Virus record (IMG/VR): IMGVR_UViG_3300020400_000037
Span: 1-24,820 of that record
DNA: 24,820 nucleotides
Strand: one strand, 5' to 3'
Origin: a virus
Part shown: in pieces, positions 6,707 to 23,795 of the stretch
Layout of the letters: each line of letters begins with the position of its first letter
Position numbering within the stretch: position 1 is the stretch's first letter
The notes under the pieces: model-generated
The model's database searches: none
Told to the model about the DNA's origin: nothing
What the model saw: only the letters and a program-made list of their open reading frames with translations
Position numbers and translations under genes: made by a program

Positions 6707-9382
6707 TTACTCGCCTCCTCCAAAGTCAAACAAGTTGTTAAAAGTATTTTTTTGAAGTGTACTTGCTATGTCATAATTAAGCACACCTATTAAGTTGCCT
6801 AGTTTGTTGTCAATGATTGTAGACTCCATAGCATCATTGTCAAATGGAAGTTCTTTAAACCATTCTGGCAAACGTAATTCATCTGTTGGATACGCAACAC
6901 TTGTATAACCTAGTGGGTTAGTTTTAAGTTTACACACAATAACTTTCATGCCGTCAACAATTTCTTGCGAATACTTGTCACCATTCATACGTTTTAGTGT
7001 GTTCCAATTAATACTTGCTCTTACGTGACCAGGCATATTAGCTTTACCTTCACGTTGTTCTTTTCTCATATAGTCACCAATCCTGTTAGCACGTTTAGGA
7101 GAACCTTTTTCATACCCAGGACGTATTTTAAATTCTGTTCTAAATTCACTGATACGTGCAAGAATATCCTTTTCACTTTTTTCTTGCAACACCATCATCA
7201 ATATTTCACTCAAGAAGTCTTGCATAAACACAGGAGTATCTGAACGTTTAAGATCCAAGCCCATGGCTTTTACTTTACCAGGCTTGCCATTAGTATCTGT
7301 ACGTTCTCCTTCGTTGTCATAAATCAATGCCGCATATCTTTTCTTAGTGATATACAATCCAGACTCTGCAACAATCTCTCTACCTGCCGCAATAACATCT
7401 GATCTGCTTTTAGGACAATGGAATGCCTCCATCATAAACTTGCCAAATGTTTTGTTTGCTTCTCCACAAACTTGATCATACAGTTTAATAACACTATCCT
7501 TTGTCCAAGGAATCTGTCCTGCTTCTATTTCTTTCTTCAATATAGGAAACGCACTAAAATACACTGAGTCTGTATCACCATATATAATGCTATCACCTAC
7601 GTGATCATATGTGCCTGTAATAACTTTGTTTACTTCTGCCGCCATGTGTTTAGCAATAGCTCTGCCTGTAAGTGTAGTTGACTGTCCTATACGTTTATCA
7701 AAAAATCTACAACCAGGATTTAGTATTGCACCATATAAACTATTTAGGTTAATCTTCTTAACTAGCTGTCTTTTGTCCCAGAAAGCAATCTCTGTTTCGT
7801 TACCGGCATCAATGGCTTTCTTTTTCATTGCCTGTAATTCTTTACGTTCTGAATACCAACGTTTCAGCAAACCTGGAATAACACCATCAAATTCATTTGT
7901 AAGTATTGTACCATTGGCAGTAAGCATCCATGGTTGATTGCTGTCATAAATTAATTTGTAAACTTCCGCGGCACTTAATATTTCACTTTCGCCACTTTCA
8001 AAGTCAACAGTAATGTCAACATCTTTTCTTTGCTCCATTACCGCAGTATATTCTAGTGTACCAAACTTGCCTTCCCAAGCACCTGCGAATGACTTCTTTT
8101 GTAATGTCATTTGATCATCAATGAATGCCTGTGTTAAATCTTGTCTTAGTTGTCCAACAATGGTTGCTGGATCCATGTTCAATGCTCTAATTACACTAGG
8201 ATACAGACTGTTTAAGTCCATAGAGCCTATCCATTTATGCACACCTTTTTTAGGAAATGCCACATAGGCACCTGCCGCCGCAGTATTTTCTTCATCACGT
8301 TTTGGCCTGTTAGGAACCTGTAGTCCTCTGTGATGTGCTTCGTTGATAATTGCTTGTTCTGTAACTGCGACAGCACCCATTGTGGTCTGTAGCAAAACAG
8401 TATTTGCATGAGCTAGTTCATTTGATAAATCTATGAACTTTAATTTTTTATCCAGCTTGTCCAGTAGTGCAACGTCTTGTCTGTTGTACTCAATGAATGT
8501 TCTGAAGTCATTGTTATAAAGTTGATCGAGTGTGCCTTCATACACAGTTTTCTTTTCACCGATCTCCATCTCTCCAATGGCATCAAGTCTGTAAGTATGT
8601 CTTTCTTCATATGTGTATTTACGATATAGTTCCAAACTATCTAAATGCACTCTGCCTATTAGGTCATAGGTTTCAGCCTTCTTACCATACTTTTCATACT
8701 CACGTTTCTTAGGAAGTTGTTTCCATAAACAAAAACGTCTTGTATCATCTTTGCTTAAAATTCTTTTTACTCTGTTGACACAATATGGAATATCATATCC
8801 TTCACTGTTCCAACCACTCAACACATCTGCATCTTTAAGCAAATCTAAGAATGCTTCTAGCATATCAGATTCTTTTTCAAAAAGATGTGTGTTTTCAAAA
8901 TCTTTAACTTGATCTTTTGCTTGATCTATTGTTAGTGTCTTTGGCGGAATTGCAAGTGTTACCAAACTATCTAACCATTGTAGATGTACAGTGATTGCAG
9001 TGATTGGCATAAACGGATCGCTTGGATCAGCAAATCCTCTTTCAGGATCAAAGTCTGTTTCAATATCAAAGAATGCTACATTAAGTTTAGGAGCATCAAT
9101 GTTCAAATAGTTTTCACTCAAACATTGGAATATTGGATTTACATCACTTTCAAATAAATCTTTGTTTTGATTGATAGCAAGTTCTTTTCTAAATTGTTTT
9201 GTGTTTCTTGCTACTATACGATTCAGAGGATCGCCATAAATGCTTTTGTATTTTCCTCTTTGATCTTTGTAATAGAATGTGTACTTTACGGGATATTCAG
9301 TAAAATGTCTTTTACCATCTTTTCTTTCGACTACACGGATAACATCTTGATCCCTATCGAATTGTGCGTCTACGTAACTCAT
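6707..9382 (-). CDS. 43: DNA polymerase, family B, T4 gp43-like
   Basis: An 891-residue polymerase, near T4 gp43 (898). Exonuclease motifs: FFDIETD at 104-110 (Asp106, Glu108), SGWNSEGYDIPY at 189-200 (Asp197) and YNRQD at 299-303 (Asp303). Polymerase motifs: DLNSLYPS at 389-396 (A), KKINLNSLYGA at 542-552 (B) and YGDTDSVY at 601-608 (C). All metal-binding acids are present, so both synthesis and proofreading should be active. The sequence is complete without an intein or split, unlike some marine T4-like phages. It is driven by a near-ideal early promoter at 9468-9496. Translation is probably controlled by paired hairpins just before the AGGAG ribosome site (see 9397-9441). The clamp is encoded further downstream. 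Confidence 0.97.
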   Translation of the reverse strand: MSYVDAQFDRDQDVIRVVERKDGKRHFTEYPVKYTFYYKDQRGKYKSIYGDPLNRIVARNTKQFRKELAINQNKDLFESDVNPIFQCLSENYLNIDAPKLNVAFFDIETDFDPERGFADPSDPFMPITAITVHLQWLDSLVTLAIPPKTLTIDQAKDQVKDFENTHLFEKESDMLEAFLDLLKDADVLSGWNSEGYDIPYCVNRVKRILSKDDTRRFCLWKQLPKKREYEKYGKKAETYDLIGRVHLDSLELYRKYTYEERHTYRLDAIGEMEIGEKKTVYEGTLDQLYNNDFRTFIEYNRQDVALLDKLDKKLKFIDLSNELAHANTVLLQTTMGAVAVTEQAIINEAHHRGLQVPNRPKRDEENTAAAGAYVAFPKKGVHKWIGSMDLNSLYPSVIRALNMDPATIVGQLRQDLTQAFIDDQMTLQKKSFAGAWEGKFGTLEYTAVMEQRKDVDITVDFESGESEILSAAEVYKLIYDSNQPWMLTANGTILTNEFDGVIPGLLKRWYSERKELQAMKKKAIDAGNETEIAFWDKRQLVKKINLNSLYGAILNPGCRFFDKRIGQSTTLTGRAIAKHMAAEVNKVITGTYDHVGDSIIYGDTDSVYFSAFPILKKEIEAGQIPWTKDSVIKLYDQVCGEANKTFGKFMMEAFHCPKSRSDVIAAGREIVAESGLYITKKRYAALIYDNEGERTDTNGKPGKVKAMGLDLKRSDTPVFMQDFLSEILMMVLQEKSEKDILARISEFRTEFKIRPGYEKGSPKRANRIGDYMRKEQREGKANMPGHVRASINWNTLKRMNGDKYSQEIVDGMKVIVCKLKTNPLGYTSVAYPTDELRLPEWFKELPFDNDAMESTIIDNKLGNLIGVLNYDIASTLQKNTFNNLFDFGGGE

Positions 9383-11081: not shown

Positions 11082-11735
11082 TTAATCAGAATTGGATTCT
11101 TCTTCTTTGGTTTTGTATGACCATTCGTCAGTGTGTCCTACTGACCATTTTGGTGTGTTTTCTACTGTGTAATTTTGTGTGCATACTTTGAAGTCAGGCA
11201 TTTTCTTGTCTGGGTGTACCAAACTTTGATCTGTGAAAATGACTCTATTATTTGGTTGTGCGGCAAATTGTCCGTTGTCCAATTTAATTACATTAAATGA
11301 TTTGTGTTCTGGATCATGTTCTGAAAAGTTTGTGTCTAATGTGCTATTATCTCTATGACATGAATCTATAGAAAATATGTAGTTGCCTTTGTGCATCTTT
11401 TTATCTTTGCCAAAGAATTCGCAATCAGCTAACATAGGCTTTTTAATTATTGTGATATCATAATCAAAACAATCCCATATTTGAAGTGTATCTAATGGCA
11501 GTTGATTATCTTTGTCATAATCTTCTTTCCAAACAAATGCACTAATAGGTAGCTTGTCAAACAGAGCTCCGTAGTCTGTAAGTAAAGTTTCAAAATATAA
11601 TGCTTTTCCTTGAATGGATCTTACACTGATCCAGTAGCCTGGAGTCAATTCCCCATGACCTTTTTGATGATCATACAAGTATTCTTTTTTTACAAATACT
11701 TCTACAGGTGGTAGGTTATGAACTAAAAAAGCCAT
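11082..11735 (-). CDS. Conserved T4-like marine phage protein, unknown function
   Basis: A 217-residue soluble protein starting MAFLVHNLPPVEVFVKKEYL. It has segments such as LLTDYGALFDKLPISAFVW, LPLDTLQIWDCFDYD, HKSFNVIKLDNGQFAAQPNN and DFKVCTQNYTVENTPKW. I recall similar sequences in cyanophage/pelagiphage genomes, always uncharacterised. The pattern is beta-rich with no signal peptide. It has AAGGAG 6 nt before ATG and a late-promoter motif about 26 bp upstream, so it is probably made late, perhaps for morphogenesis. Confidence 0.75.
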   Translation of the reverse strand: MAFLVHNLPPVEVFVKKEYLYDHQKGHGELTPGYWISVRSIQGKALYFETLLTDYGALFDKLPISAFVWKEDYDKDNQLPLDTLQIWDCFDYDITIIKKPMLADCEFFGKDKKMHKGNYIFSIDSCHRDNSTLDTNFSEHDPEHKSFNVIKLDNGQFAAQPNNRVIFTDQSLVHPDKKMPDFKVCTQNYTVENTPKWSVGHTDEWSYKTKEEESNSD

Positions 11736-11760: not shown

Positions 11761-11768
11761 TATTTATG
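11761..11768 (-). promoter_or_regulatory. T4-type late promoter
   Basis: Minus-strand CATAAATACTTTAAA just after the stop of the upstream gene and 26 bp before ATG 11735. It matches the T4 late consensus TATAAATA at 7 of 8 positions and sits in a short true intergenic gap. Confidence 0.7.
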
Positions 11769-11776
11769 CTAAATTA

Positions 11777-12211
11777 TTATTTGCTACCTAGAAAGGCTTG
11801 TCCTTTGCCTTGGGCTTTTTGAAACTTTTTCCAACCCTCAGCGGAACCTATCTGTTTTCCAGACTGTGAATTCCAGTTTTGTCCGTCCCAAGTCCATACT
11901 TCGCCACCTTCTGAATAACCACTGCCTTTTGCAAGTTGATCTGGTTTGGTAATGCTTGGCTCTCTTTTTGCTTTTACTGGCTTCTGCTTAACTGGTTTTT
12001 CCTTAGGTGTAACAATTTTTCCACCTTTGCCACGTATTGCACCCATGCCAGTTGGACCTCTATCTTGTGCTGTACCTGGAGGAGATACTCCAGCAAATCC
12101 TGATTTCTTATTGAATGTTTTATTTAGGTCAGCAAAATATCCAGCAATACTTCCTGGTATGCTTTTAAGTCTATCTAACTCCGGACCTTCTGTTAAATCT
12201 TTTATCTTCAT
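11777..12211 (-). CDS. Basic low-complexity protein with capsid-targeting-like N-terminus
   Basis: A 144-residue protein starting MKIKDLTEGPELDRLKSIPG. The first eight residues, ending L-T-E before Gly, fit the I/L-x-E cut rule of T4-type prohead protease. A Gly/Pro/Lys-rich middle (KPVKQKPVKAKREP) follows, then a WTWDGQNW segment and GWKKFQKAQGKGQAFLG. No enzyme motif. ATGA coupling to the upstream Cys/Lys-rich gene and the late promoters around it suggest a virion or internal head protein; this is inference. Confidence 0.65.
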   Translation of the reverse strand: MKIKDLTEGPELDRLKSIPGSIAGYFADLNKTFNKKSGFAGVSPPGTAQDRGPTGMGAIRGKGGKIVTPKEKPVKQKPVKAKREPSITKPDQLAKGSGYSEGGEVWTWDGQNWNSQSGKQIGSAEGWKKFQKAQGKGQAFLGSK

Positions 12212-12603
12212 GTCTTTACGTTCTTTGCTTTACCACGTCTATCTGGGTTAGGATCTTTTCTACGTTTCCTAGCGGCAGAAGTTTTTCTTTTCTTCTTGCC
12301 CATTGCGTATGCTTTTGCGGCTGGTAAACATTTAGGCTTGCCTTCTCCTTTTGACTTGCCTCCGCATGATCCACGCACTTTGCCATCTGGACCAAAACGC
12401 ACCCACTTTTGTTTGAACCACTTTTTTAAATCTTCGTGTAAATCCATTTCTTCTGAAAATACTAAATCTCCACAATTTACACAATAGTCTACGTGTTCAC
12501 GTTTTACACAGTTGGGTACACGTTTTCCGAACATGGTTTTCATGCCCTTCTTTTCGTAACCCTTCCAACAGCGAGTACCTTCTTCTATTTCATTCCAACG
12601 CAT
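12208..12603 (-). CDS. Cys/Lys-rich modular phage protein
   Basis: A 131-residue protein built of short modules. An N-terminal MRWNEIEEG is a capsid-targeting-like start. GTRCWKGYEKKGMKTMFGKR followed by PNC is one module (C12, C32), YCVNCG is a CxxC knuckle (41, 44), and WVRFGPDGKVRGSCGGKSKG followed by KPKC is another (C80, C92). The tail is very basic. I recall the GTRCWKGY and RGSCGGKSKGEGKPKCLPA modules from many marine phage proteins, uncharacterised. The Cys spacing suggests zinc-stabilised, nucleic-acid-binding units. It is coupled upstream by TAATG and downstream by ATGA. Confidence 0.75.
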   Translation of the reverse strand: MRWNEIEEGTRCWKGYEKKGMKTMFGKRVPNCVKREHVDYCVNCGDLVFSEEMDLHEDLKKWFKQKWVRFGPDGKVRGSCGGKSKGEGKPKCLPAAKAYAMGKKKRKTSAARKRRKDPNPDRRGKAKNVKT

Positions 12604-14039
12604 TACTTTTTACTCTTGCCCCAGTTCGCCGCACCTTTTTTACGACACTGAACTAGAGCACCAGAGGCGTAAGCTGATGGCCAAACTTTATATCTTGATT
12701 TTACTTTGTGGTAGCAGGCATCTTTCTTTTCTGCTAATGTATCGAACTCTTCTTCTGTGATTGATTTACCTACTGATTCTTCTAAAGAGCCGTATGATTC
12801 TTTTTTCTTTTTATTGTGCTTGTCTTTGATTTTACCAATCTCTTCTGCACTTGCACCCTTACCAGCGGCACTTTGAATCTTTTTCATTCCGTCTTTGCCG
12901 TACTTTTTTACGCCGGCTCTGTACATTATTCCAGATTCGTCTGTGTCTTGGTCAGTCTTTTTTTTTAGGTTTAAATTTTCTGCTAATCTGTTTGCTAAAG
13001 ATTCTTTGTAATCTTTTGCTTTCTTTTCTTTTTTCTTATCTACTGGTGCTTCGTTTTTAATTTCTTTGATTTTGTTTCCACAACAACTACACTCTTTACC
13101 TACTTCTGCCATTGTGTGGTCACCGCCACAATGTCCGCAATCGTCTTTACATCCACAAGTTGCTTTGCCCTTGCCTTCAGTAACTTCATCAAACTTCATT
13201 TCATAATCCATGTTATGATAGACAGCACCCATGTAATCAGCGGCTTTTGTAATTTTAGATTGTACCCAACCTTCTAATCCTTCTTGTTCTGATACGCCTT
13301 TAAGCATATCATGAAGTTTGATTGAGTATTTTGCTATTTTATACAGTTGAGCTCTTGCCATTTGCACTTCATGGTCTTGCTCTGCCTTGCTGGCCAAATC
13401 TGCTAAATCTTCGTTTAATTCTTTGCTTTTGTCCATTGTAACTTCCTTACTATTATTTAGCCTTTTTAAGGGTTGACCAAATAGTCCGTGACTTTTGTTA
13501 TCTAGTGCATTATCCGTTGGTTTTTGCTTCTTAGGCTTTGCTTTACTGTTTGCTATGTGTGGATTTGCCACAGTTGCTATGTTACCAGCACTTGTTGAGC
13601 CTGGTGTAGCAGTTTCTTTCATTTTAGGGTGATATGCCCAGTGTATTTTCTTTGCTTCTTTGTCTACTGATTTGCCATCTATTTTGATTTCAATTGGCAT
13701 TGGTTTGTCAGGACTTCCTGCCCAGTAATAAGAATCATAGCTACCATCTGCATTACTTGTAATTACAAGTCCTCTAGTGTACTTGTCGTCATCTGCTTGA
13801 AACACCATCTTCTTACCATTAGGTAATTTCATGTCTGCATCAATCTTTTTCTTTGGTTTATTCTCGCTATGTGCGTCTTCTACTTGTAAATCTTTGTTTT
13901 TGTGTTTTGCTTTGCGTGGAATTTCTTTTGTTTTGTCACCATGGCTTCCTGCGGCTCCACTTTTACGTAGGTCCTGCATAGCCTTTGCATTAGGATCTCT
14001 TGGCTTACTTGGTGTCTTTTTTACTTCTCTTATACGCAT
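12603..14039 (-). CDS. Large modular Lys/Cys-rich protein with internal start site
   Basis: A 478-residue mosaic. Residues 1-50 are basic, starting MRIREVKK and containing NAKAMQDLRKSGAAGSHGDK. A beta segment lies near 74-140. STSAGNIATVANPH at 148-161 is a linker. From 202 comes a helical module (SKELNEDLADLASKAEQDHE, then GWVQSKITKAADY), then a Cys cluster (C295, C297, C301, C304, C317, C319, C320). YRAGVKKYGKDGMKKIQSAA at 373-392 and a final CYHKVKSRYKVWPSAYASGA with C465 close it. These modules recur in marine phage proteins of unknown role. An internal ATG at 13436 (residue 202) has AAGGA and a CTAAATAA late-type box directly upstream. The gene may therefore give a full-length product and a 277-residue C-terminal product, or be a fusion of two genes. 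Confidence 0.75.
   Translation of the reverse strand: MRIREVKKTPSKPRDPNAKAMQDLRKSGAAGSHGDKTKEIPRKAKHKNKDLQVEDAHSENKPKKKIDADMKLPNGKKMVFQADDDKYTRGLVITSNADGSYDSYYWAGSPDKPMPIEIKIDGKSVDKEAKKIHWAYHPKMKETATPGSTSAGNIATVANPHIANSKAKPKKQKPTDNALDNKSHGLFGQPLKRLNNSKEVTMDKSKELNEDLADLASKAEQDHEVQMARAQLYKIAKYSIKLHDMLKGVSEQEGLEGWVQSKITKAADYMGAVYHNMDYEMKFDEVTEGKGKATCGCKDDCGHCGGDHTMAEVGKECSCCGNKIKEIKNEAPVDKKKEKKAKDYKESLANRLAENLNLKKKTDQDTDESGIMYRAGVKKYGKDGMKKIQSAAGKGASAEEIGKIKDKHNKKKKESYGSLEESVGKSITEEEFDTLAEKKDACYHKVKSRYKVWPSAYASGALVQCRKKGAANWGKSKK
13453..13460 (-). promoter_or_regulatory. Late-promoter-like box and internal ribosome site
   Basis: Minus-strand CTAAATAATAGTAAGGAAGT followed by TACA and ATG 13436. 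The box resembles phage late promoters, and AAGGA lies 7 nt before an in-frame ATG at a module boundary of the 12603-14039 gene. This supports a separately expressed C-terminal product. Confidence 0.45.
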
Positions 14040-14044
14040 AGTAG

Positions 14045-14052
14045 TATTTACC
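14045..14052 (-). promoter_or_regulatory. Late-promoter-like box before the modular protein
   Basis: Minus-strand GGTAAATACTACT directly before ATG 14039, overlapping the stop of the upstream gene. It shares TAAATACTA with the T4 late consensus but differs at the first two bases. No strong ribosome site follows. Weak candidate. Confidence 0.3.
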
Positions 14053-15625
14053 TTTTCATTAAATCCATGATCTCTTTTAAGTTTCCACCTATCATGGATA
14101 CTTTTGCAGTAGGAACGCCTAATAAACGTAGTGCATCGTATCTGTGATGTCCGTTGATTATGTGTCCTTGATTGTCTACAATAATATCAGGCATCTTGTC
14201 TGTCAAAACTCTTACCATTGCTTTTCCAAGTTTTTTAAACTTTCTATCTTTTTGCACAGGAATAAGTCTGTCAACTGGTGCATTTCCTTTTTTAGCAATA
14301 AAGTCTTCAACATCTTCTGATTTAACTTGTGGCGGTGCTTTACCTTTTGTAGGTTTTTCATCATAGTGTGCGTCTGTGTATCCGTCGTTGTCTTGCACTT
14401 TGTAACCCAAACGTTTAAGTTGTCCCATCATGTATTCTTTTTCTTTTTCACCACCAAAGAAATTAACAAGAACATCAGGTTCATCAGGATTCATATCATC
14501 TGGATTTACGTCTTTGATATTTGCCATGTTCACACCCAACTTTAAAAAGTCATAGGCTGTGTCTGCTTTACTTACTATTGTACCTTTTGGAAAAGGAATC
14601 AAGTCACCCTCATCAACGTCATCTTCATTCTTTGCCATCTTTGTTGCAGTTGCATACATGACAGCTTTTGCATCTTTACCATAACGTTTTTCAAAATCTG
14701 CTTTGTTTTTCTTCATGCCCTTTACAAAACGTTCTTTGTCTTTTTCTTCACCCTTTGTAAGTTCTCTTTCGGTTGCTGGTTTTTCAAAATATTTTTTCAA
14801 GTTGTTTGCAGTCCTTTCAAACTTGTGATCCTTGTGTTTGAATCCTACGCCACCTGCGGCTTCCCATTTTGCTACATTTTGTCCAAAGTCATCTATCAAT
14901 ATGTTAGGTGTTCCATCAGGTTGTGTTGCAAATTTACTTTTTTGTGCAGTAATGATAACTTCTTTAGGAGCAAATGATGTAAGATTTTTCTTGACCCATT
15001 CACGTTTGCTAGGTTCTACTCTTTCATCATCTGACATAGGAGCAGATAGAATATTATATTCACCTTTTAATTCTTTAATGATTGATAGCAAGTTACTTGC
15101 GTTTGGAGTAGGTTTTAAATCAATCCAAAAGTCTTTTGTATCTCTAATTTTTTGTAAAGCGGCATCAACGTCTTTAATTTCTTTCCAACTTTTTACTCCA
15201 AGTAATTTTGTCCACGCATCAAAAAAGTCTACAAGTACTCCGTCCATATCAACATAAATTTCACTTGCACTTGATATTTGAGTTGCGTCTGCTTCGTTGG
15301 CTTTGTTGTTGCCTTTGTTTTTGTAATCAAATCTGTTGTTAGGACCTTTACCTGGTTTGTGTATTAACCCCATTGGTTTAATGCTTTGTGGCATAATTAT
15401 CCATTCATCTTTTTTTGACTCTGCCATTCCTAAATTAAACAAAGTATTTGGATCACTATTTTTGTGAGCCTTTTTGTGCATAGTATAAGCGGGTTTTCCT
15501 TTTTTGTCAACCTTAAATCCAAACTTGGCCGCTTGTTTTGTAATAGCATCAACGCCGACGTCAGGTGTTGTGTTAACACCTTTAACTACTAATCCAACTC
15601 CTTCTGTGATATGTCTTAGTCTCAT
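14048..15625 (-). CDS. Fusion: targeting-like N-terminus, 5'(3')-deoxyribonucleotidase-like HAD domain, ParB-like domain
   Basis: A 525-residue mosaic. It begins MRLRHITEG, a capsid-targeting-like start with I-T-E before Gly. Residues 121-280 form a HAD domain of the 5'(3')-deoxyribonucleotidase type: VDMDGVLVDFFDAW (Asp126, Asp128), NILSAPMS (Ser194 region), a Lys at 229/231, and ILIDDFGQN (Asp245/246). It would dephosphorylate deoxynucleotides. KKNKADFEKRYGKDAKAVMY at 305-324 is a module common in marine phages. Residues 436-525 look like a ParB/sulfiredoxin-type domain with NGHHRYDALRLLG (GHHR at 492-495), a fold that binds nucleotides or cuts nucleic acid. The ATGA overlap couples it to the upstream gene. 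The domain mix plus targeting-like start suggest a packaged enzyme; this is inference. Confidence 0.8.
   Translation of the reverse strand: MRLRHITEGVGLVVKGVNTTPDVGVDAITKQAAKFGFKVDKKGKPAYTMHKKAHKNSDPNTLFNLGMAESKKDEWIIMPQSIKPMGLIHKPGKGPNNRFDYKNKGNNKANEADATQISSASEIYVDMDGVLVDFFDAWTKLLGVKSWKEIKDVDAALQKIRDTKDFWIDLKPTPNASNLLSIIKELKGEYNILSAPMSDDERVEPSKREWVKKNLTSFAPKEVIITAQKSKFATQPDGTPNILIDDFGQNVAKWEAAGGVGFKHKDHKFERTANNLKKYFEKPATERELTKGEEKDKERFVKGMKKNKADFEKRYGKDAKAVMYATATKMAKNEDDVDEGDLIPFPKGTIVSKADTAYDFLKLGVNMANIKDVNPDDMNPDEPDVLVNFFGGEKEKEYMMGQLKRLGYKVQDNDGYTDAHYDEKPTKGKAPPQVKSEDVEDFIAKKGNAPVDRLIPVQKDRKFKKLGKAMVRVLTDKMPDIIVDNQGHIINGHHRYDALRLLGVPTAKVSMIGGNLKEIMDLMKR
15482..15510 (-). promoter_or_regulatory. 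Possible internal promoter in the nucleotidase-ParB gene
   Basis: TTGACA (15510-15505), a 17-bp spacer and TATACT (15487-15482), near the 5' end of the gene and followed at once by an in-frame ATG. The hexamers are as good as at the clear early promoters, but the location inside a late-block gene is unexpected. Treat as a candidate. Confidence 0.35.
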
Positions 15626-15840
15626 TTTTTACGTCCTCGAAACTTTGGAGTTCCCATCCAGAAAGGTTTTCCAAACCAAAGTTTAAACCATTCTTGGTCA
15701 CCTGGTTTAATACCAAGTTTCTTTTCTTTGGCTTTTAGAGCAGTTGCAGTAATGCTAGGGTTTTCGTCAATTTTGTATTCCGTATAACCTTCGAATTGCC
15801 CTATCCCTGCTAGTTTCTGTAGTTTCTTTATTTCGTCCAT
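15622..15840 (-). CDS. Small basic phage protein
   Basis: A 72-residue protein starting MDEIKKLQKLAGI, with KAKEKKLGIKPGDQEWFKLW in the middle and a basic FRGRKK end. I recall similar LQKLAGI starts in marine T4-like phages, without function. GAAG lies before the ATG, and the gene is coupled by ATGA to the large nucleotidase-ParB gene. Its first 74 bp overlap another small frame (15767-15940), so one of the two could be spurious. Confidence 0.6.
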   Translation of the reverse strand: MDEIKKLQKLAGIGQFEGYTEYKIDENPSITATALKAKEKKLGIKPGDQEWFKLWFGKPFWMGTPKFRGRKK

Positions 15841-15940
15841 CTTCTTTATATAGTGTTTCTTTGTGTTTGTGCTTAAAACCTCTTATTCGCATTTTCAAGT
15901 TGTCAATTTTATCATCTAAAGACATCTCATCAAACTTCAC
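15767..15940 (-). CDS. Small basic protein, GTG start, overlaps next gene
   Basis: A 57-residue frame beginning (M)KFDEMSLDDKIDNLKMRIRG and continuing KHKHKETLYK. Its GTG overlaps the upstream stop as GTGA and has GGGAGG 5 nt upstream. It fills the only gap (15841-15936) in this tightly packed block, which argues for a real gene. The 74-bp out-of-frame overlap with the following gene is larger than usual here, so confidence is moderate. No family recognised. Confidence 0.45.
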   Translation of the reverse strand: MKFDEMSLDDKIDNLKMRIRGFKHKHKETLYKEDGRNKETTETSRDRAIRRLYGIQN

Positions 15941-16134
15941 TTTTTCCTCCCTGACTTCATGTTAGCACACCAGTGATACATTTTTGCACGTTCGCCTGAT
16001 GCTTTCTTAGCCTTTGCTCTTAAACTTGTTACTGATCCTTTGCAACTTGCTCCTGAACGTTTAACACGACCAGGTCTGCTTTTGCCTTTCTTTTTTCCAT
16101 CTGCAAAATTTTCTGAAAACTCATATGCTCTCAT
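15937..16134 (-). CDS. Small basic Cys-containing phage protein
   Basis: A 65-residue, strongly basic protein. MRAYEFSENFADGKKKGKSR is followed by PGRVKRSGASCKGSVTSLRA and a KMYHWCANMK end. The SRPGRVKRSGASCKGSV and MYHWC modules recur in uncharacterised marine phage proteins. F-S-E near the N-terminus resembles the targeting-like starts of its neighbours, though more weakly. ATG 16134 overlaps the adenylyltransferase stop as ATGA; an upstream start at 16155 is less likely. Possibly nucleic-acid binding. Confidence 0.65.
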   Translation of the reverse strand: MRAYEFSENFADGKKKGKSRPGRVKRSGASCKGSVTSLRAKAKKASGERAKMYHWCANMKSGRKK

Positions 16135-17072
16135 TTCTTTTTCTTTCCTGCACAATGAGCCTTTTGTGAAAATCCTTTTGGATTAGAACAGTTAATACTT
16201 TTTTTATATTTTGCTGACCAACCTTCGCCTAGTTTAAAAGGAAAGCCTAAATTTTTAAATAAATTTGCAGTAGTCTTTGCACTTCTTAAAGCCTTCTGCA
16301 TTAATTCTTGTTCATCTGATGAACGTGAGTCGTAAAAACGTAAAAATTTATTTGCAGTAGCAGGATCAACATATAGTTTTCCTCCTACACTTATTTCATT
16401 GTCATCTGCGTTCCAACTTAACGGAAAAGGTTTGCCATCTTTTCTAGATGCAATATTGTTTAACACATCTATCTTTGGTTTCTGTTGTTTAACTTGAAGT
16501 TCTGCTATTGCTTCTGCAACTCCCATACCAACACGTACTTTGTCAAACATCATTTTAGCTAATTTTTCATCACCAGCAACACCTGTTTTAAAAGTTTCAA
16601 AGTCACCTTCTGCGGCCGCGGCTTTAAGTTTACTTGCACTCATACCTTCTGCACCTTCGGCATCTGGATCACGTTGTCCTGCATTCACAACATTGATAGA
16701 ATTAAAATTATAATCCTTGCCGTTGTAATCATTTAATAGTTTTTCAAACTGAGCAACCCTATCAGATCCTGCAACGTATATGATGTCTGAATATCCTTTT
16801 GCTTCTAAAAATTTCATAGCATCTATAATTGTTTTTACTGATTGATCCCCTATCTTTATTCCACTAAAACTTTTTTCTGCAAAGAATACTTTTTCTGCAA
16901 ATGATAAAGGATCTGTTTTAGGTTTTTGTGTATGTGTTAAAAAGAGAAAAGGTTCACCGTCTTGTGATTTTATTTTATCAACAAGTTTTGCGTGTCCAAT
17001 AGTCGGAGGATTCATTCTGCCAAAAGCGAATGTGGCAACTTTAGGTGCTTCGAATATTTCTCTTAAAAACAT
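16131..17072 (-). CDS. Nicotinamide-nucleotide adenylyltransferase-like protein with basic Cys tail
   Basis: A 313-residue protein. Residues 11-160 are a nucleotidyltransferase alpha/beta-phosphodiesterase-type domain: FAFGRMNPPTIGHAKL (the x-x-GH motif at 24-27), YVAGSDRVAQFE at 99-110, and EGMSASKLKAA at 142-152 (the counterpart of ISSTxxR). NadM/NMNAT enzymes make NAD from NMN and ATP, and phages such as KVP40 carry NAD-salvage genes. A C-terminal extension ends in CSNPKGFSQKAHCAGKKKK, a Cys/Lys module seen in other marine phage proteins. The start MFLREIFEA resembles a capsid-targeting sequence (I-F-E before Ala). ATG 17072 overlaps the upstream stop as TAATG, so I reject the longer frame from 17138. 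Confidence 0.8.
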   Translation of the reverse strand: MFLREIFEAPKVATFAFGRMNPPTIGHAKLVDKIKSQDGEPFLFLTHTQKPKTDPLSFAEKVFFAEKSFSGIKIGDQSVKTIIDAMKFLEAKGYSDIIYVAGSDRVAQFEKLLNDYNGKDYNFNSINVVNAGQRDPDAEGAEGMSASKLKAAAAEGDFETFKTGVAGDEKLAKMMFDKVRVGMGVAEAIAELQVKQQKPKIDVLNNIASRKDGKPFPLSWNADDNEISVGGKLYVDPATANKFLRFYDSRSSDEQELMQKALRSAKTTANLFKNLGFPFKLGEGWSAKYKKSINCSNPKGFSQKAHCAGKKKK

Positions 17073-17416
17073 TAATAGGCTCCATCTCTGATCAACTCCA
17101 TTTCCTCTTCGTAGATTTTTTCTATTACTGCTGTACACTGATCGTCAGTTAACAGGTCTTCAGGTCTCTTTGGAATATCATACTTAGAACAGTAATGACT
17201 TTTTGCCTTGTCAATCATAGGCATTAGCATTTCACGTTGATCAACAGGTTCACCCTTTTTTAATTTATCTTGCATAAGTGCAAGTGTTGGGTAATATTGT
17301 TTTCTGTAGAACATAGGATCGTTCTTCATGTGTATGCAAAGATCCTCAACAACATCAAACTCTAACGGTTTGAATTCTTGTTTTTCCTGTTCTATGAATT
17401 CTGCAAGTTTTACCAT
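17072..17416 (-). CDS. Conserved phage protein of unknown function
   Basis: A 114-residue acidic, mostly helical protein starting MVKLAEFIEQEKQEFKPLEF, with MKNDPMFYRKQYYPTLALM in the middle and IEKIYEEEMELIRDGAY at the end. I recall DPMFYRKQ-type proteins as conserved hypotheticals in T4-like marine phages. ATG 17416 has GGAG 9 nt upstream and overlaps the preceding stop by 7 bp; an upstream TTG (17431) is less likely. Unlike its neighbours it lacks a Cys/Lys tail or a targeting-like start. Confidence 0.7.
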   Translation of the reverse strand: MVKLAEFIEQEKQEFKPLEFDVVEDLCIHMKNDPMFYRKQYYPTLALMQDKLKKGEPVDQREMLMPMIDKAKSHYCSKYDIPKRPEDLLTDDQCTAVIEKIYEEEMELIRDGAY

Positions 17417-17784
17417 TTGCGACAACTCCAATATCTTGCTTTTGTTCTTGGACCTGGATTATCGCAGTTGTGTCTTGCTCTAAATGATCTGCGTCTTGCA
17501 GGATTTGACTTCTTAATCTTCATGTTAGGATCACCGAAGTTTACCTTTTTGATATTTTTTGTTTTAGGATCTCTGACGTATACTTTGAACTTTTTGACGT
17601 CGCCACGCATTGGCTTTCCAAGTTTAACTTTACGCCCTTGGTATTCAGCTTCGTCTACAATCTCATCTTCGTTGAACCACATATCACCATATGCGATGTG
17701 GAAATCATCACCATCATATGTTTCTTCAACCCAGCGGTTTTGTTCCTCTGTTTCTTTTAAATAATCTTTAAATGTTTTAGACAT
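17410..17784 (-). CDS. Modular phage protein with basic Cys-containing C-terminus
   Basis: A 124-residue protein. MSKTFKDYLKETEEQNRW resembles the T4 internal-protein leader (MKTYQEFIAEA) in its aromatic, Leu and Glu positions. EAEYQGRKVKLGKPMRGDVK then KFKVYVRD, then VNFGDPNMKI, form a compact beta module. RRRSFRARHNCDNPGPRTKA followed by RYWSC is a basic Cys module. This pairing is familiar from many marine phage proteins of unknown role. It heads the coupled block and has a GATAAATA late promoter and AGGAG upstream. Confidence 0.75.
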   Translation of the reverse strand: MSKTFKDYLKETEEQNRWVEETYDGDDFHIAYGDMWFNEDEIVDEAEYQGRKVKLGKPMRGDVKKFKVYVRDPKTKNIKKVNFGDPNMKIKKSNPARRRSFRARHNCDNPGPRTKARYWSCRKW

Positions 17785-17805: not shown

Positions 17806-17813
17806 TATTTATC
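17806..17813 (-). promoter_or_regulatory. T4-type late promoter heading the modular block
   Basis: Minus-strand GATAAATACTCTTAG in a 40-bp intergenic gap, 22 bp before ATG 17784 and followed by AGGAG. It matches the late consensus at 7 of 8 positions. It probably drives 17784 down through the coupled genes to about 11.8 kb. Confidence 0.75.
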
Positions 17814-18105: not shown

Positions 18106-18444
18106 CTAATGATTCAATAAAACGTTTTGTATTGTACCGCTAGTAAAGTTTGCTACCACACGTACCCATACAAAGTTACCTGTAAAATTGTGGAAAAAAC
18201 TACCGTTTGATCCTTGTGATTCAGTACCTGCTATGTCAAAGTAATCAGCTTCTACAGGTTCCGTTGCAAGTGTGCCTTGCATCTTAATTGTACCATTGAA
18301 ATCTGACAAGTTGTATTGCACAGTATGAAAGCCATCTGATCTACCATAAAAGCCATCACCTTTGAACTTTTCACCAGTGACCGTAGTTGTAGTAGAGTCA
18401 CCTGCGTGTACTTGATTTGTCAATATTATTTCTGAACTGGACAT
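18106..18444 (-). CDS. Beta-rich virion-like protein
   Basis: A 112-residue, Thr/Ser/Gly/Phe-rich protein with no charged helices: GFYGRSDGFHTVQYNLSDF, GTIKMQGTLATEPVEADYFD, SFFHNFTGNFVWVRVVANFT and a final NVLLNH. I recall this pattern in small proteins of marine phages, apparently a beta-sandwich with structural or fibre-like character. Function is inferred from composition and from the late-promoter motif just upstream. It could be a head-decoration or tail-associated protein. Confidence 0.6.
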   Translation of the reverse strand: MSSSEIILTNQVHAGDSTTTTVTGEKFKGDGFYGRSDGFHTVQYNLSDFNGTIKMQGTLATEPVEADYFDIAGTESQGSNGSFFHNFTGNFVWVRVVANFTSGTIQNVLLNH

Positions 18445-18448
18445 ACTA

Positions 18449-19111
18449 TTATTTATCCGTATTTGTTTGATGTACTATCTTGTCCAAACGTATGATATTA
18501 TCGTGTAAAAACATTCTAATTAAGGTCAAAACCTTCTCGTTTTTTGCATACATATACCTACCACGTAGCTCACTGCTGGATTTAAAACTGCGTAATAGCA
18601 TATCTCCAACCCGTACCTTGTCCTTGTTGTTTAAGCACCAGTCATAAAAATTAGGGTGAGCAGTTCCATTCAGAAACACTTTGTATTCATATGGAAAAGG
18701 TTCATCTACATATATAATATTTGCTTTTGCATTAATATTTTTAGGCTCCCATAACCATGGCACATCATGAAGTTTTTTGCCAATCCTTTTCAACCATTTA
18801 GCATTGTTGGAATATATTCCTAATCTAAATCCCTCACATCTTAGCATATATTCTACATCATCTTGGAAAGCATTGATCAATATTTTTAGATCGTGTAAAT
18901 CGTTTTGAGATATATCTGTTTTCTTTTGTGACCATCTAGAAGGTTTATATCCTATTGGTTCACCTTTCATGTATTGTAGGTTTAAGCTGTCGATTATGTC
19001 ACGTGCTTGGTCAAGCCTTTTATTCCTAAAGATGGAGGCTCCAGTGTTCATTACACCTAGCTTGTACAGGTACTTGTCCCAGAAAAGTTTATTTGCTTTG
19101 CGTGTGATCAA
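18449..19111 (-). CDS. Conserved phage protein of unknown function, TTG start
   Basis: A 220-residue basic, mostly helical protein: KLFWDKYLYKLGVMN and SIFRNKRLDQARDIIDSL early, GIYSNNAKWLKRIGK in the middle, WLWEPKN, then YDWCLNNKDKVRVGDMLL and a helical end (LTLIRMFLHDNIIRLDKIVH). I recall related hypotheticals in T4-like marine phages but no function. The TTG at 19111 lies inside the clpA 3' end (23-bp overlap) with AAGGAG 10 nt upstream. An internal ATG (residue 21) is an alternative, but it would cut the KLFWDKYLYKL segment. Confidence 0.7.
   Translation of the reverse strand: MITRKANKLFWDKYLYKLGVMNTGASIFRNKRLDQARDIIDSLNLQYMKGEPIGYKPSRWSQKKTDISQNDLHDLKILINAFQDDVEYMLRCEGFRLGIYSNNAKWLKRIGKKLHDVPWLWEPKNINAKANIIYVDEPFPYEYKVFLNGTAHPNFYDWCLNNKDKVRVGDMLLRSFKSSSELRGRYMYAKNEKVLTLIRMFLHDNIIRLDKIVHQTNTDK
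18450..18457 (-). promoter_or_regulatory. T4-type late promoter motif
   Basis: Minus-strand GATAAATAATAG overlapping the stop of the upstream gene and ending 5 bp before ATG 18444. The motif is good, but transcription from it would begin at or within the start codon, so the mRNA could be leaderless. Alternatively it serves only the genes further down. Confidence 0.5.
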
Positions 19112-21350
19112 CTTTCTCTTGCTCCTTAACTTTTACCGTATTTAACACAAAGGTTTCTTCATTAACATCTATGTTTAATTTACCACCTTCTTTTAAATCA
19201 CCGAACAAGAGTTGTTTAGACAATGGGGTTTTTATTTCTTTATCAATTACACGTTGTAAAGGTCTAGCACCCATCTTTGCATCAAACCCTTTGTCAACTA
19301 ATAAGTCAATAGCACTATCAGATATTGTAGTTTCTACTTCTTTTTCTTTTAGCATATTTTTAAGTTCAAGTAAAAACTTGCCTACAATCTTGATCATTGT
19401 GTTCTTTTCAAGTTTACTAAATGTCATTATACCATCAAGTCTATTTCTAAACTCTGGTGGAAAGAATTTTTTAAGTTCTTTATCTTCGTATTCTTTATCT
19501 AAAGAACCAAACCCAATGGCATTTGTGTCTGCTTCTTGTGAACCTAAGTTAGTTGTAAGTATCAAAACAATATTTCTACAGTCAGCAGTTTTACCATTTG
19601 ATCCTGTTACAAAACCATTGTCCATTATCTGTAACAACAACGAGCTAACATCAGGATGTGACTTTTCAATCTCATCTAGTAGCAATACACAATTAGGATT
19701 TTCTTGTAATTTTGTAATCAATAAACCTGCATTCTCTTCAAAGCCTACGTATCCTGGAGGAGATCCAATAAGTTTAGCTACTGAATGTTTTTCTTGATAT
19801 TCAGACATATCAAATCTAACAAGTTTTACACCTAACTGATTTGAAAGTTGTCTTGCAGTTTCAGTTTTACCAACTCCAGTTGGTCCCATGAACACAAAAG
19901 ACCCAACGGGTTTGTTTTCAGTTTTAAGTCCTGCCTGTGCAACAAGTATTTTATCAACTATTTCGCCAATAGCTTTATCCTGTCCATACACTTCGCCTTT
20001 AAGATTCTTTTCTAGGTTAGCAAGATTGCTTGTTTCTTTTTCTTTAACCTGTGCTTCAGGTAAGTTTACTGCTTTTGCTATTTCAAATTGTATTTCGTCT
20101 TCGCCTACAACCTTTTCAGTATCACTTTTTAGATTGAATCTAGAACAAGCACAATCAATCAAATCAATTGCTTTATCTGGCAGTTTCTTATCTGCTTGGT
20201 ACTTAATACTTAATTTAATTGCACTACAAATAGCTTCTTCAGTAATAGTTGTCTTATGAAACTCTTCGTAATACTTCTTGATGCCCATTAATATTTCTTT
20301 TGTAACTTCTTTGCTTGGCTCGTCAATAGTAACTCTAGCAAATCTACGCATCAATGCTCTGTCTTTTTCAAAATACTTTCTGTATTCTTCCCAAGTGGTT
20401 GAAGCAACAATTTTAATATTGCCTTTGGTCATTACAGGCTTCAACATATTTGCTAAATCATTAGAACTATTTCCGCCACCTGCTCCTGCACCACTAATCA
20501 TGTGTGCTTCATCAATGAACACAATGGTCTTGCCACGTTTTTTAAGTGCGGCTAATACCAGTTTAAATCTTTCTTCAAAGTCACCTCTGTATTTTGAACC
20601 TGCTAACATACTTCCTATGTCTAAGTTGTAAACACTATACTCCATTAAGAAGTCTGGGCATGACTTTTGTACGATGTTCCAGGCGAGGCCTTCTGCAATA
20701 GCAGTTTTACCTACACCTGGATCACCCACTAGCAATACGTTGTTCTTGCTTCTTCTTCCTAAAGCAAGTGCAATAGAATCAAGTTCAGGATGTCTTCCTA
20801 TTACAGGATCAATTTTACCTTTATCTACTTCTGCATTTAAATTAGTTGTGAATGAACGTAAAGCTCTAGTTGCCATACCGGACATTTCTTCATCTTCGTA
20901 GTTTTCTACTAATTCATTCTGCAAGTAGTCTTGGAACTTGTCTTTGTCAATATCAGCTTTTGTGATATGATAGTGACTCCAGCTTTTCTTTTCATTCATT
21001 ATGCTTAAGAATACATCAGCACATTCTATATGACTTCTACCACTAAACAATACTTGAGTGAAAGCTCTGTTCAATACTCTTTCAACTGCGTGTGTTTTCT
21101 TTGGCTTGTATTTCTTTGACTTTTCTGGCGGTAATTGTATTTTTTCAGTTTGCTTTTTTAAATAGTTTTCAATATTCTTTTTTAAGAATTCAGGATCAGC
21201 ACCAAAGCCCTCAATGACCTTTGCAAAACTTTCTTCGCATAGCATGGCAAAGAGCAAATGCTCAATAGTAACGTATTCGTGTTGTAGCTTCTTAGCTACA
21301 TCAACTGCTTTATCAAATACTAATTGTAACTGTTCACTAGGTTCTACCAT
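19089..21350 (-). CDS. clpA: ClpA-type AAA+ unfoldase
   Basis: A 753-residue two-ring AAA+ protein, near E. coli ClpA (758). Residues 1-145 are a Clp N-domain (SEQLQLVFDKAVDVAKKLQH, IEHLLFAML). First AAA+ ring: Walker A GDPGVGKT 209-216, Walker B IVFIDE 276-281. Second ring: GPTGVGKT 489-496, VLLLDE 555-560, arginine-finger region EFRNRLD 633-639. AIGFGS at 611-616 sits where ClpA carries its IGL tripeptide, the loop that docks into ClpP, so it should still feed a host ClpP. No long ClpB-type middle coiled coil is present. It is coupled to def upstream by a 14-bp overlap. Role: unfolding proteins for degradation, possibly redirecting the host protease. Confidence 0.95.
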   Translation of the reverse strand: MVEPSEQLQLVFDKAVDVAKKLQHEYVTIEHLLFAMLCEESFAKVIEGFGADPEFLKKNIENYLKKQTEKIQLPPEKSKKYKPKKTHAVERVLNRAFTQVLFSGRSHIECADVFLSIMNEKKSWSHYHITKADIDKDKFQDYLQNELVENYEDEEMSGMATRALRSFTTNLNAEVDKGKIDPVIGRHPELDSIALALGRRSKNNVLLVGDPGVGKTAIAEGLAWNIVQKSCPDFLMEYSVYNLDIGSMLAGSKYRGDFEERFKLVLAALKKRGKTIVFIDEAHMISGAGAGGGNSSNDLANMLKPVMTKGNIKIVASTTWEEYRKYFEKDRALMRRFARVTIDEPSKEVTKEILMGIKKYYEEFHKTTITEEAICSAIKLSIKYQADKKLPDKAIDLIDCACSRFNLKSDTEKVVGEDEIQFEIAKAVNLPEAQVKEKETSNLANLEKNLKGEVYGQDKAIGEIVDKILVAQAGLKTENKPVGSFVFMGPTGVGKTETARQLSNQLGVKLVRFDMSEYQEKHSVAKLIGSPPGYVGFEENAGLLITKLQENPNCVLLLDEIEKSHPDVSSLLLQIMDNGFVTGSNGKTADCRNIVLILTTNLGSQEADTNAIGFGSLDKEYEDKELKKFFPPEFRNRLDGIMTFSKLEKNTMIKIVGKFLLELKNMLKEKEVETTISDSAIDLLVDKGFDAKMGARPLQRVIDKEIKTPLSKQLLFGDLKEGGKLNIDVNEETFVLNTVKVKEQEKVDHTQSK

Positions 21351-23787: not shown

Positions 23788-23795
23788 TATTTATC
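23788..23795 (-). promoter_or_regulatory. T4-type late promoter for the membrane-protein unit
   Basis: Minus-strand GATAAATACACA in the 34-bp gap between the o-spanin and the next gene, 7 of 8 to late consensus and starting two bases after the o-spanin stop codon. Confidence 0.75.

Follow-up and report, generated by a model that had tools for sequence, protein, structure and literature searches.

A late gene block of a marine T4-like jumbo phage encodes candidate internal head proteins with short propeptide-like starts and shuffled basic modules

The DNA analyzed here, referred to throughout as the window, comprises all 24,820 nucleotides (positions 1 to 24,820) of IMG/VR virus record IMGVR_UViG_3300020400_000037. 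This 24.8-kb stretch is a fragment of a marine T4-like jumbo myovirus. It carries a T4-type family-B DNA polymerase at 6707-9382, whose identity was confirmed beyond reading by eye, together with a clamp, a Clp ATPase, DnaJ, and a peptide deformylase, which were named by eye from the sequence; its nearest relatives are marine viral contigs. With gene starts taken from the list of open reading frames (ORFs), we focus on ten minus-strand genes, B1 to B10 (11777-17784; Table 1), set against the remaining 31 genes of the window and against four long relatives, named G001 to G004, that were read along their whole length. Six of the ten products begin with a short tag ending in h-x-E, where h is a hydrophobic residue; counted back from the presumed cut, marked by a slash below, h is at position P3 and Glu at P1. 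We consider it likely that the block encodes T4-style internal head proteins, with N-terminal propeptides for targeting, cutting of the gp21 type, and bodies that are partly modular polyproteins.

The genes of the block overlap or abut their neighbors. A T4-type late promoter element heads B10 and the next one follows B1, so that, judged from promoter sequence, all ten genes appear to form a single late operon, in keeping with the coupled late block described in an earlier note on this DNA. This element, ATAAATA, is rarer than chance in the window (4 observed, 10 expected), and all four copies are on the minus strand, each shortly upstream of a gene start (11761-11767, 17806-17812, 18450-18456, and 23788-23794). 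In G001, 40 of 54 copies lie at most 45 nucleotides upstream of a start, compared with about 7 to 18% for shuffled motifs; the corresponding counts are 33/47 in G002, 27/45 in G003, and 16/24 in G004. The strict form TATAAATA had no match in the window, ATAAATA being the informative core.

Table 1. Features of the block, in order of position. aa, amino acids; pI, isoelectric point; AF2, AlphaFold2; pLDDT, predicted local distance difference test score.
Feature	Position	Strand	Description
Next late promoter element	11761-11767	-	3' of B1, upstream of gene 11082-11735; downstream end of the block's transcription unit
B1	11777-12211	-	144 aa, pI 10.0; MKIKDLTE/G; tag is the sole h-x-E site
B2	12208-12603	-	131 aa, pI 10.0; MRWNEIEE/G and m1 (GTRCWKGYEKKGMK..), then LHE/D and m6 (DLKKWFKQKW..)
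B2 tag MRWNEIEE	12580-12603	-	in relatives, m1 preceded by MRWAEIEE, MRISEIVE, MLLRELIE, MKTWEITE
B3	12603-14039	-	478 aa, multi-module protein; start MRIREVKK, residue 8 without site
Module m4 in B3	12606-12728	-	KKDACYHKVKSRYKVWPSAYASG.., after LAE/K; also in virion proteins S-CREM2 ORF160 and S-SCSM1 ORF29
gp23-like segment in B3	13569-13622	-	MKE/TATPGSTSAGNIATV; alignment to G001 gp23
B4	14048-15625	-	525 aa; tag MRLRHITE/G; predicted 5'(3')-deoxyribonucleotidase (residues 120-279), basic module m8, ParB-like domain (about 442-513)
B4 tag MRLRHITE	15602-15625	-	orthologue conservation; AF2 pLDDT 32
B5	15622-15840	-	72 aa; no tag; start MDEIKKLQKLAGI like gp22 scaffold C-terminus (DIRRLAGLK) of relatives, suggestive only
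B6	15767-15940	-	57 aa; GTG start; no tag
B7	15937-16134	-	65 aa; ATG at 16134; MRAYEFSE/N, then m2 (NFADGKKKGKSRPGRVK..)
B8	16131-17072	-	313 aa; nucleotidylyltransferase (PPAT/NMNAT class, by predicted fold and motifs); tag MFLREIFE/A; basic module at C-terminus
Module m3 in B8	16134-16223	-	GWSAKYKKSINCSNPKGFSQKAHCAGKKKK, after LGE/G; upstream-context comparison
B8 tag MFLREIFE	17049-17072	-	predicted propeptide; orthologue conservation; residues 1-10 mean pLDDT 59
B9	17072-17431	-	119 aa, acidic; no tag; conserved in relatives
B10	17410-17784	-	124 aa, basic, pI 9.6; start MSKTFKDYLKE/T (T4-type tag); ends in RRSFRARHNC...YWSCRKW module
B10 tag, residues 1-11	17752-17784	-	fits T4 form [FYLW]..[FY][ILMFV].E
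Late promoter element ATAAATA	17806-17812	-	heads block, upstream of B10

All seven starts quoted in the earlier note exist on the minus strand. The five described there as alike have the exact form M.h..h.E, which occurs in 5 of the 10 block genes and in none of the 31 others (Fisher p=3e-4), and MSKTFKDYLKE, likened to the T4 leader, fits the longer T4 form. The start is nevertheless not shared across the whole block: B5, B6, and B9 are untagged, and the partial match MRIREVKK of B3 is a genuine start but lacks the site at residue 8. Since the pattern was defined after the window had been viewed, the relatives are the better, although not fully independent, test; looked for across their genes, the exact start was carried by 7 of the 43 genes of the block and by 3 of the 991 elsewhere (p=1e-8), and a relaxed form by 12 of 43 and 14 of 991 (p=3e-11). 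A loose pattern applied to whole genomes matched 12 to 15% of genes, near background, and was uninformative, and a made-up chimeric query of tag plus module gave no match. The tagged proteins are basic, with a pI of 9.2 to 10.7.

Conservation among orthologues singles out the same positions. Among 34 orthologues of the adenylyltransferase B8, 32 have Glu-8 and every one has a hydrophobic residue 6; the 28 orthologues of the nucleotidase B4 all share Met-1 and Glu-8, and 96% of them have a hydrophobic residue 6. In both sets the neighboring residues of the tag vary, among them residues 4, 5, and 7 of the nucleotidase. In terms of the T4 gp21 rule, cleavage after L/I-x-E, residue 6 is P3 and residue 8 is P1 (PMC9026906); in the tag of T4 IPIII, residues 4 and 7 act in targeting and residues 8 and 10 in processing (PMC9026906). 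The five 8-residue starts and MSKTFKDYLKE are, by sequence, short N-terminal propeptides ending in L/I-x-E like those of the T4 capsid-targeting sequence class, MRAYEFSE alone among the five having Phe at P3, and orthologue tags grade from MKNFSSFLTE/A via MKKFSEIIE/A to MFLREIFE/A. Overlapping ATGA start and stop codons favor Lys or Arg at residue 2 but account for neither Glu-8 nor the hydrophobic residue 6. Tag-like starts outside the block were MKTFADYLTE/S, MKTFKEYLVE/N, MRINELLTE/S, and MKVHQIISE/S, and a late promoter element precedes three of these; their loci are 40337-40903 in G001 (L161-L175), 41968-42564 and 99127-100098 in G002 (L176-L191), and 30271-30867 in G003 (L192-L202).

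Small basic Cys/Lys-rich modules recur in the bodies behind these starts, shuffled from one protein to another, and h-x-E usually precedes each module, be it after a tag or inside a longer protein. The protease-type sites assumed in the earlier note are thus supported, but they are not solely N-terminal. Of the 65 N-terminal borders left after dereplication, 56 have Glu at P1, as do 111 of the 133 internal ones, a count biased by the choice of module starts partly for a Glu directly before them in the window; P3, much less affected by this choice, is hydrophobic given P1 Glu at 95% of N-terminal and 72% of internal borders, compared with 29% at other Glu residues of the same proteins (p=7e-21, internal). 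The hydrophobic share of P2 and P4 at borders is about 20%. Among individual modules, m2 has P1 Glu in 59 of 59 distinct contexts and a hydrophobic P3 in 45, and m3 has 34 distinct upstream contexts, with P1 Glu in 32 and both features in 29. Border sites in B3 include MKE142/T, LNE210/D, and LAE437/K. Untagged B5 and its relatives begin with MDxxxLxxLAG[IV] or similar, and gp22-like scaffold C-termini reading DIRRLAGL[KN] or DIRRLAGLKV were seen in G001 (98391-99494), G002 (89371-90465), and G003 (18397-19503); the LAG[IVL] likeness between the gp22 end and B5 is too short a motif to be relied on.

A segment of B3 provides a link to the capsid protein gp23. G001 and G002 each have exactly two genes with the motif ATxGxTSAG, gp23 and one block gene, and the gp23 copy directly follows a likely cut site, as in KWLNE/TATAGSTSAGNVAT; G003 has the same pair once its gp23 variant TAGAGATSAGN is counted. 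In the window, MKE/TATPGSTSAGNIAT of B3 aligns to LNE/TATAGSTSAGNVATL of G001 gp23 with z=6.4 against shuffles (two control pairs, 0.8 and -0.1), and z ranges from 5.7 to 7.5 across jumbo relatives. The cyanophage segment differs in sequence yet matches each phage's own gp23 (S-CREM2 ORF160, z 13.2; S-SCSM1 ORF97, z 13.2; S-SM1_197, z 6.1). The gp23 cut sites themselves are those predicted by the L-x-E rule. The segment is suggestive of a second signal, for loading or anchoring, of a kind that none of the papers searched describes. S-SM1 SSM1_197 (L221, 22805-23353) is annotated as 'major head protein', although its best gp23 match is confined to residues 8-28 and the remainder resembles an unrelated basic protein; S-SM1_226, with the same annotation, was rejected as gp23-like, having no match to its gp23 (z -0.2).

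Two of the tagged bodies are enzymes by homology. B8 matches the PHROG cytidyltransferase (E=6e-49), its AF2 model (pLDDT 85, with the tag outside the fold) matches PPAT/NMNAT structures in Foldseek (E=7e-6), and it has the motifs N-P-P-T-x-G-H and M-S-A-S-K, with G18, R19, N21, P22, H27, S145, and A146 invariant; by modeled fold and active-site motifs it is a nucleotidylyltransferase of the PPAT/NMNAT class. B4 is a predicted 5'(3')-deoxyribonucleotidase of the NT5C type joined to a ParB-like domain (PHROG 2643, E=1e-24; Pfam NT5C, E=5e-6; ParB-like PHROG 620, E=4e-4), with intact HAD motifs D126-M-D128-G and D245-D246, which are invariant. Low-confidence stretches comprise residues 1-10, 188-197, and from about 283 in B8, and 1-13, 47-111, and 335-344 in B4; in these models, the tags and several border sites probably lie in flexible stretches.

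Packaging of such proteins in the head, as the earlier note proposed, is well supported by published virion data on relatives. Adenylyltransferase orthologues were detected in virions of S-SM1 (PMC3037559), S-SCSM1 (PMC9602691), and S-CREM2 (PMC10665884), and the S-SCSM1 paper cites further cases (PMC9602691). The neighbors of the S-SCSM1 gene, ORF89, 90, 92, 93, and 97, carry virion-protein labels; for this phage, annotated virion proteins alone were used, too few background genes having been recovered for a genome-wide tag test. One of them, ORF93 (91626-91835, L225), has a tag-like C-terminus, RTFKEFLEYIE. S-CREM2 ORF160 (7 peptides; PMC10665884) and S-SCSM1 ORF29, both virion proteins, are multi-module relatives of B2 and B3 that include relatives of m1 and m6, and they have h-x-E at or shortly before module starts (LEE/KKNCWPGYEKKG, ISE/GKKDACYHKVK, FNE/DCWDGYEKKG). 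All four packaged non-lysis enzymes of S-CREM2 have a tag near the T4 capsid-targeting sequence, namely the S-adenosylmethionine hydrolase (MKDFDSFLEE), a kinase (MKRFDAFLTE), the cytidylyltransferase (MKNFSSFLTE), and a Cas9-like nuclease (LRFASFMAE, near residue 24), and virion detection was recorded for 5 of 6 genes with a T4-like start and 47 of 213 others (p=0.003), the pattern having been picked after the data were seen. The nuclease gene is ORF12 (OR473000, 7704-10313, minus strand, L213), with 28 virion peptides (PMC10665884) and the site LRFASFMAE/A. With relatives of several of its proteins inside purified virus particles, the block looks like head-loaded cargo.

We propose that the block is a late operon from which a T4-like jumbo phage makes internal head (core) proteins. 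Propeptides of about 8 to 11 residues, M-[KR/F]-h-x-[DEQ]-[IL]-x-E, would bring otherwise unrelated proteins into the prohead core, where a gp21-type prohead protease would cleave behind h-x-E, both in the tag and wherever borders of the small basic modules are exposed. The nucleotidylyltransferase, the deoxyribonucleotidase-ParB protein, and several basic Cys/Lys-rich peptides would be left with the DNA in the mature head, and one module appears to copy the sequence directly after the presumed gp23 cut site. Some of this cargo would enter the host with the DNA, if the analogy to T4 Alt and IPI applies. Targeting and cleavage of the tagged proteins are inferred from their sequences and from the T4 precedent.

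The proteins might instead be packaged unprocessed, as minor core or DNA-binding head proteins with h-x-E serving as a scaffold docking motif. The presence of relatives in virions does not demonstrate cleavage, and a T4 tag whose position 10 is Asp retains targeting but is not cut (PMC9026906); on the other hand, the constrained positions are the T4 processing positions, P1 Glu and hydrophobic P3, also at internal borders, where docking is unlikely, and what follows one of these borders is a copy of the sequence downstream of the gp23 site. We therefore regard this explanation as unlikely. Still less probable is a late intracellular set that is not packaged at all, its enzymes acting on pools of nicotinamide adenine dinucleotide (NAD) and nucleotides and its N-terminal likeness stemming from module shuffling and overlapping start and stop codons. 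Such enzymes are plausible as metabolic genes, the ATGA overlaps would favor the basic residue 2, and virion preparations can contain carry-over, but orthologues occur in three virion proteomes beside other virion proteins, the promoter is of the late type, and overlap explains neither Glu-8 nor the internal borders. We give least credence to the idea that h-x-E is simply the conserved beginning of each module, passed on through recombination with no protease at work. The invariant Glu before m2 would fit it; however, only P1 and P3 are constrained, with I, L, V, M, and F interchangeable at P3, while P2, P4, and P5 vary freely, and the same rule is common to several unrelated modules and the likely gp23 site.

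Several observations weigh against processed internal head proteins, in addition to the selection attached above to the P1 and S-CREM2 counts. P3 is non-hydrophobic at 28% of internal borders with P1 Glu, the m8 border of B4 reads ATE/R, outside the rule, and h-x-E also occurs inside folded domains and hence is not sufficient. The HTVC008M cytidyltransferase has no tag. The window lacks gp21, gp22, and gp23, although gp21 (PF03420) and gp23 are present in the close relatives G001, G002, and G003. No virion of the window's phage exists, no neo-N-terminus is reported for these proteins, and, according to the S-SCSM1 authors, mass spectrometry of CsCl-purified virions may include carry-over (PMC9602691). 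B7 had no match in the named phages, which leaves no gp21-less phage usable as a negative control.

Processed internal head proteins have close parallels. T4 IPI, IPII, and IPIII (MKTYQEFIAE/A) likewise combine a short h-x-E propeptide with unrelated bodies and are basic late proteins of a T4-type head, with gp21 present in relatives of the window; here, however, the tags are mostly 8 residues long, enzymes are among the bodies, and module strings have extra h-x-E borders. No match of IPI-III bodies to block proteins appeared in PHROG or Pfam scans. T4 Alt, a packaged ADP-ribosyltransferase, is also a head enzyme, and its very short N-terminal propeptide of 7 residues is cut by gp21 (PMC9026906), but it belongs to a different enzyme family than the nucleotidylyltransferase and deoxyribonucleotidase. 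The NMNAT/cytidylyltransferases of S-SM1, S-SCSM1, and S-CREM2 share an orthologous domain, mass-spectrometric detection in virions, and a tag-like start before the fold, although their tag has 10 residues, near that of T4, and those papers, in the parts read, name no targeting tag. The T4 core proteins gp22, gp67, and gp68 are cut at several L/I-x-E sites in the prohead, as proposed here, whereas in our case the pieces would be conserved Cys/Lys-rich modules shuffled among proteins and in some cases fused to enzymes. Ejection proteins of phiKZ-like phages (SPN3US), compared by description and without a claim of homology, are similarly a head-packaged, protease-processed, DNA-associated set, but of another lineage; the DNA polymerase of the window and gp21 and gp23 of its relatives are of T4 type. 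The block is best read as a member of the already known class of T4 internal proteins, from which its shortened propeptide and presumed protease-cut modular bodies differ. A publication of this reading was not found in the open-access library searched, where the sole paper with both 'capsid targeting' and 'cyanophage' was a T4 review.

It is tempting to speculate, although the evidence makes this a tentative idea, that marine T4-like phages possess a general cargo-loading system, in which swappable propeptides and copies of the phage's own gp23 cut region would load the prohead with enzymes and modular polyproteins, the head protease would dice the polyproteins into small basic peptides, and the load would enter the next host and, as infection begins, alter its NAD and nucleotide metabolism. 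Cyanophage virions have repeatedly yielded metabolic enzymes such as NMNAT, with their entry route unexplained. With a recognizable tag and cut rule, the packaged cargo of very abundant ocean phages could be predicted from their sequences, and early delivery of host-altering enzymes would become directly testable.

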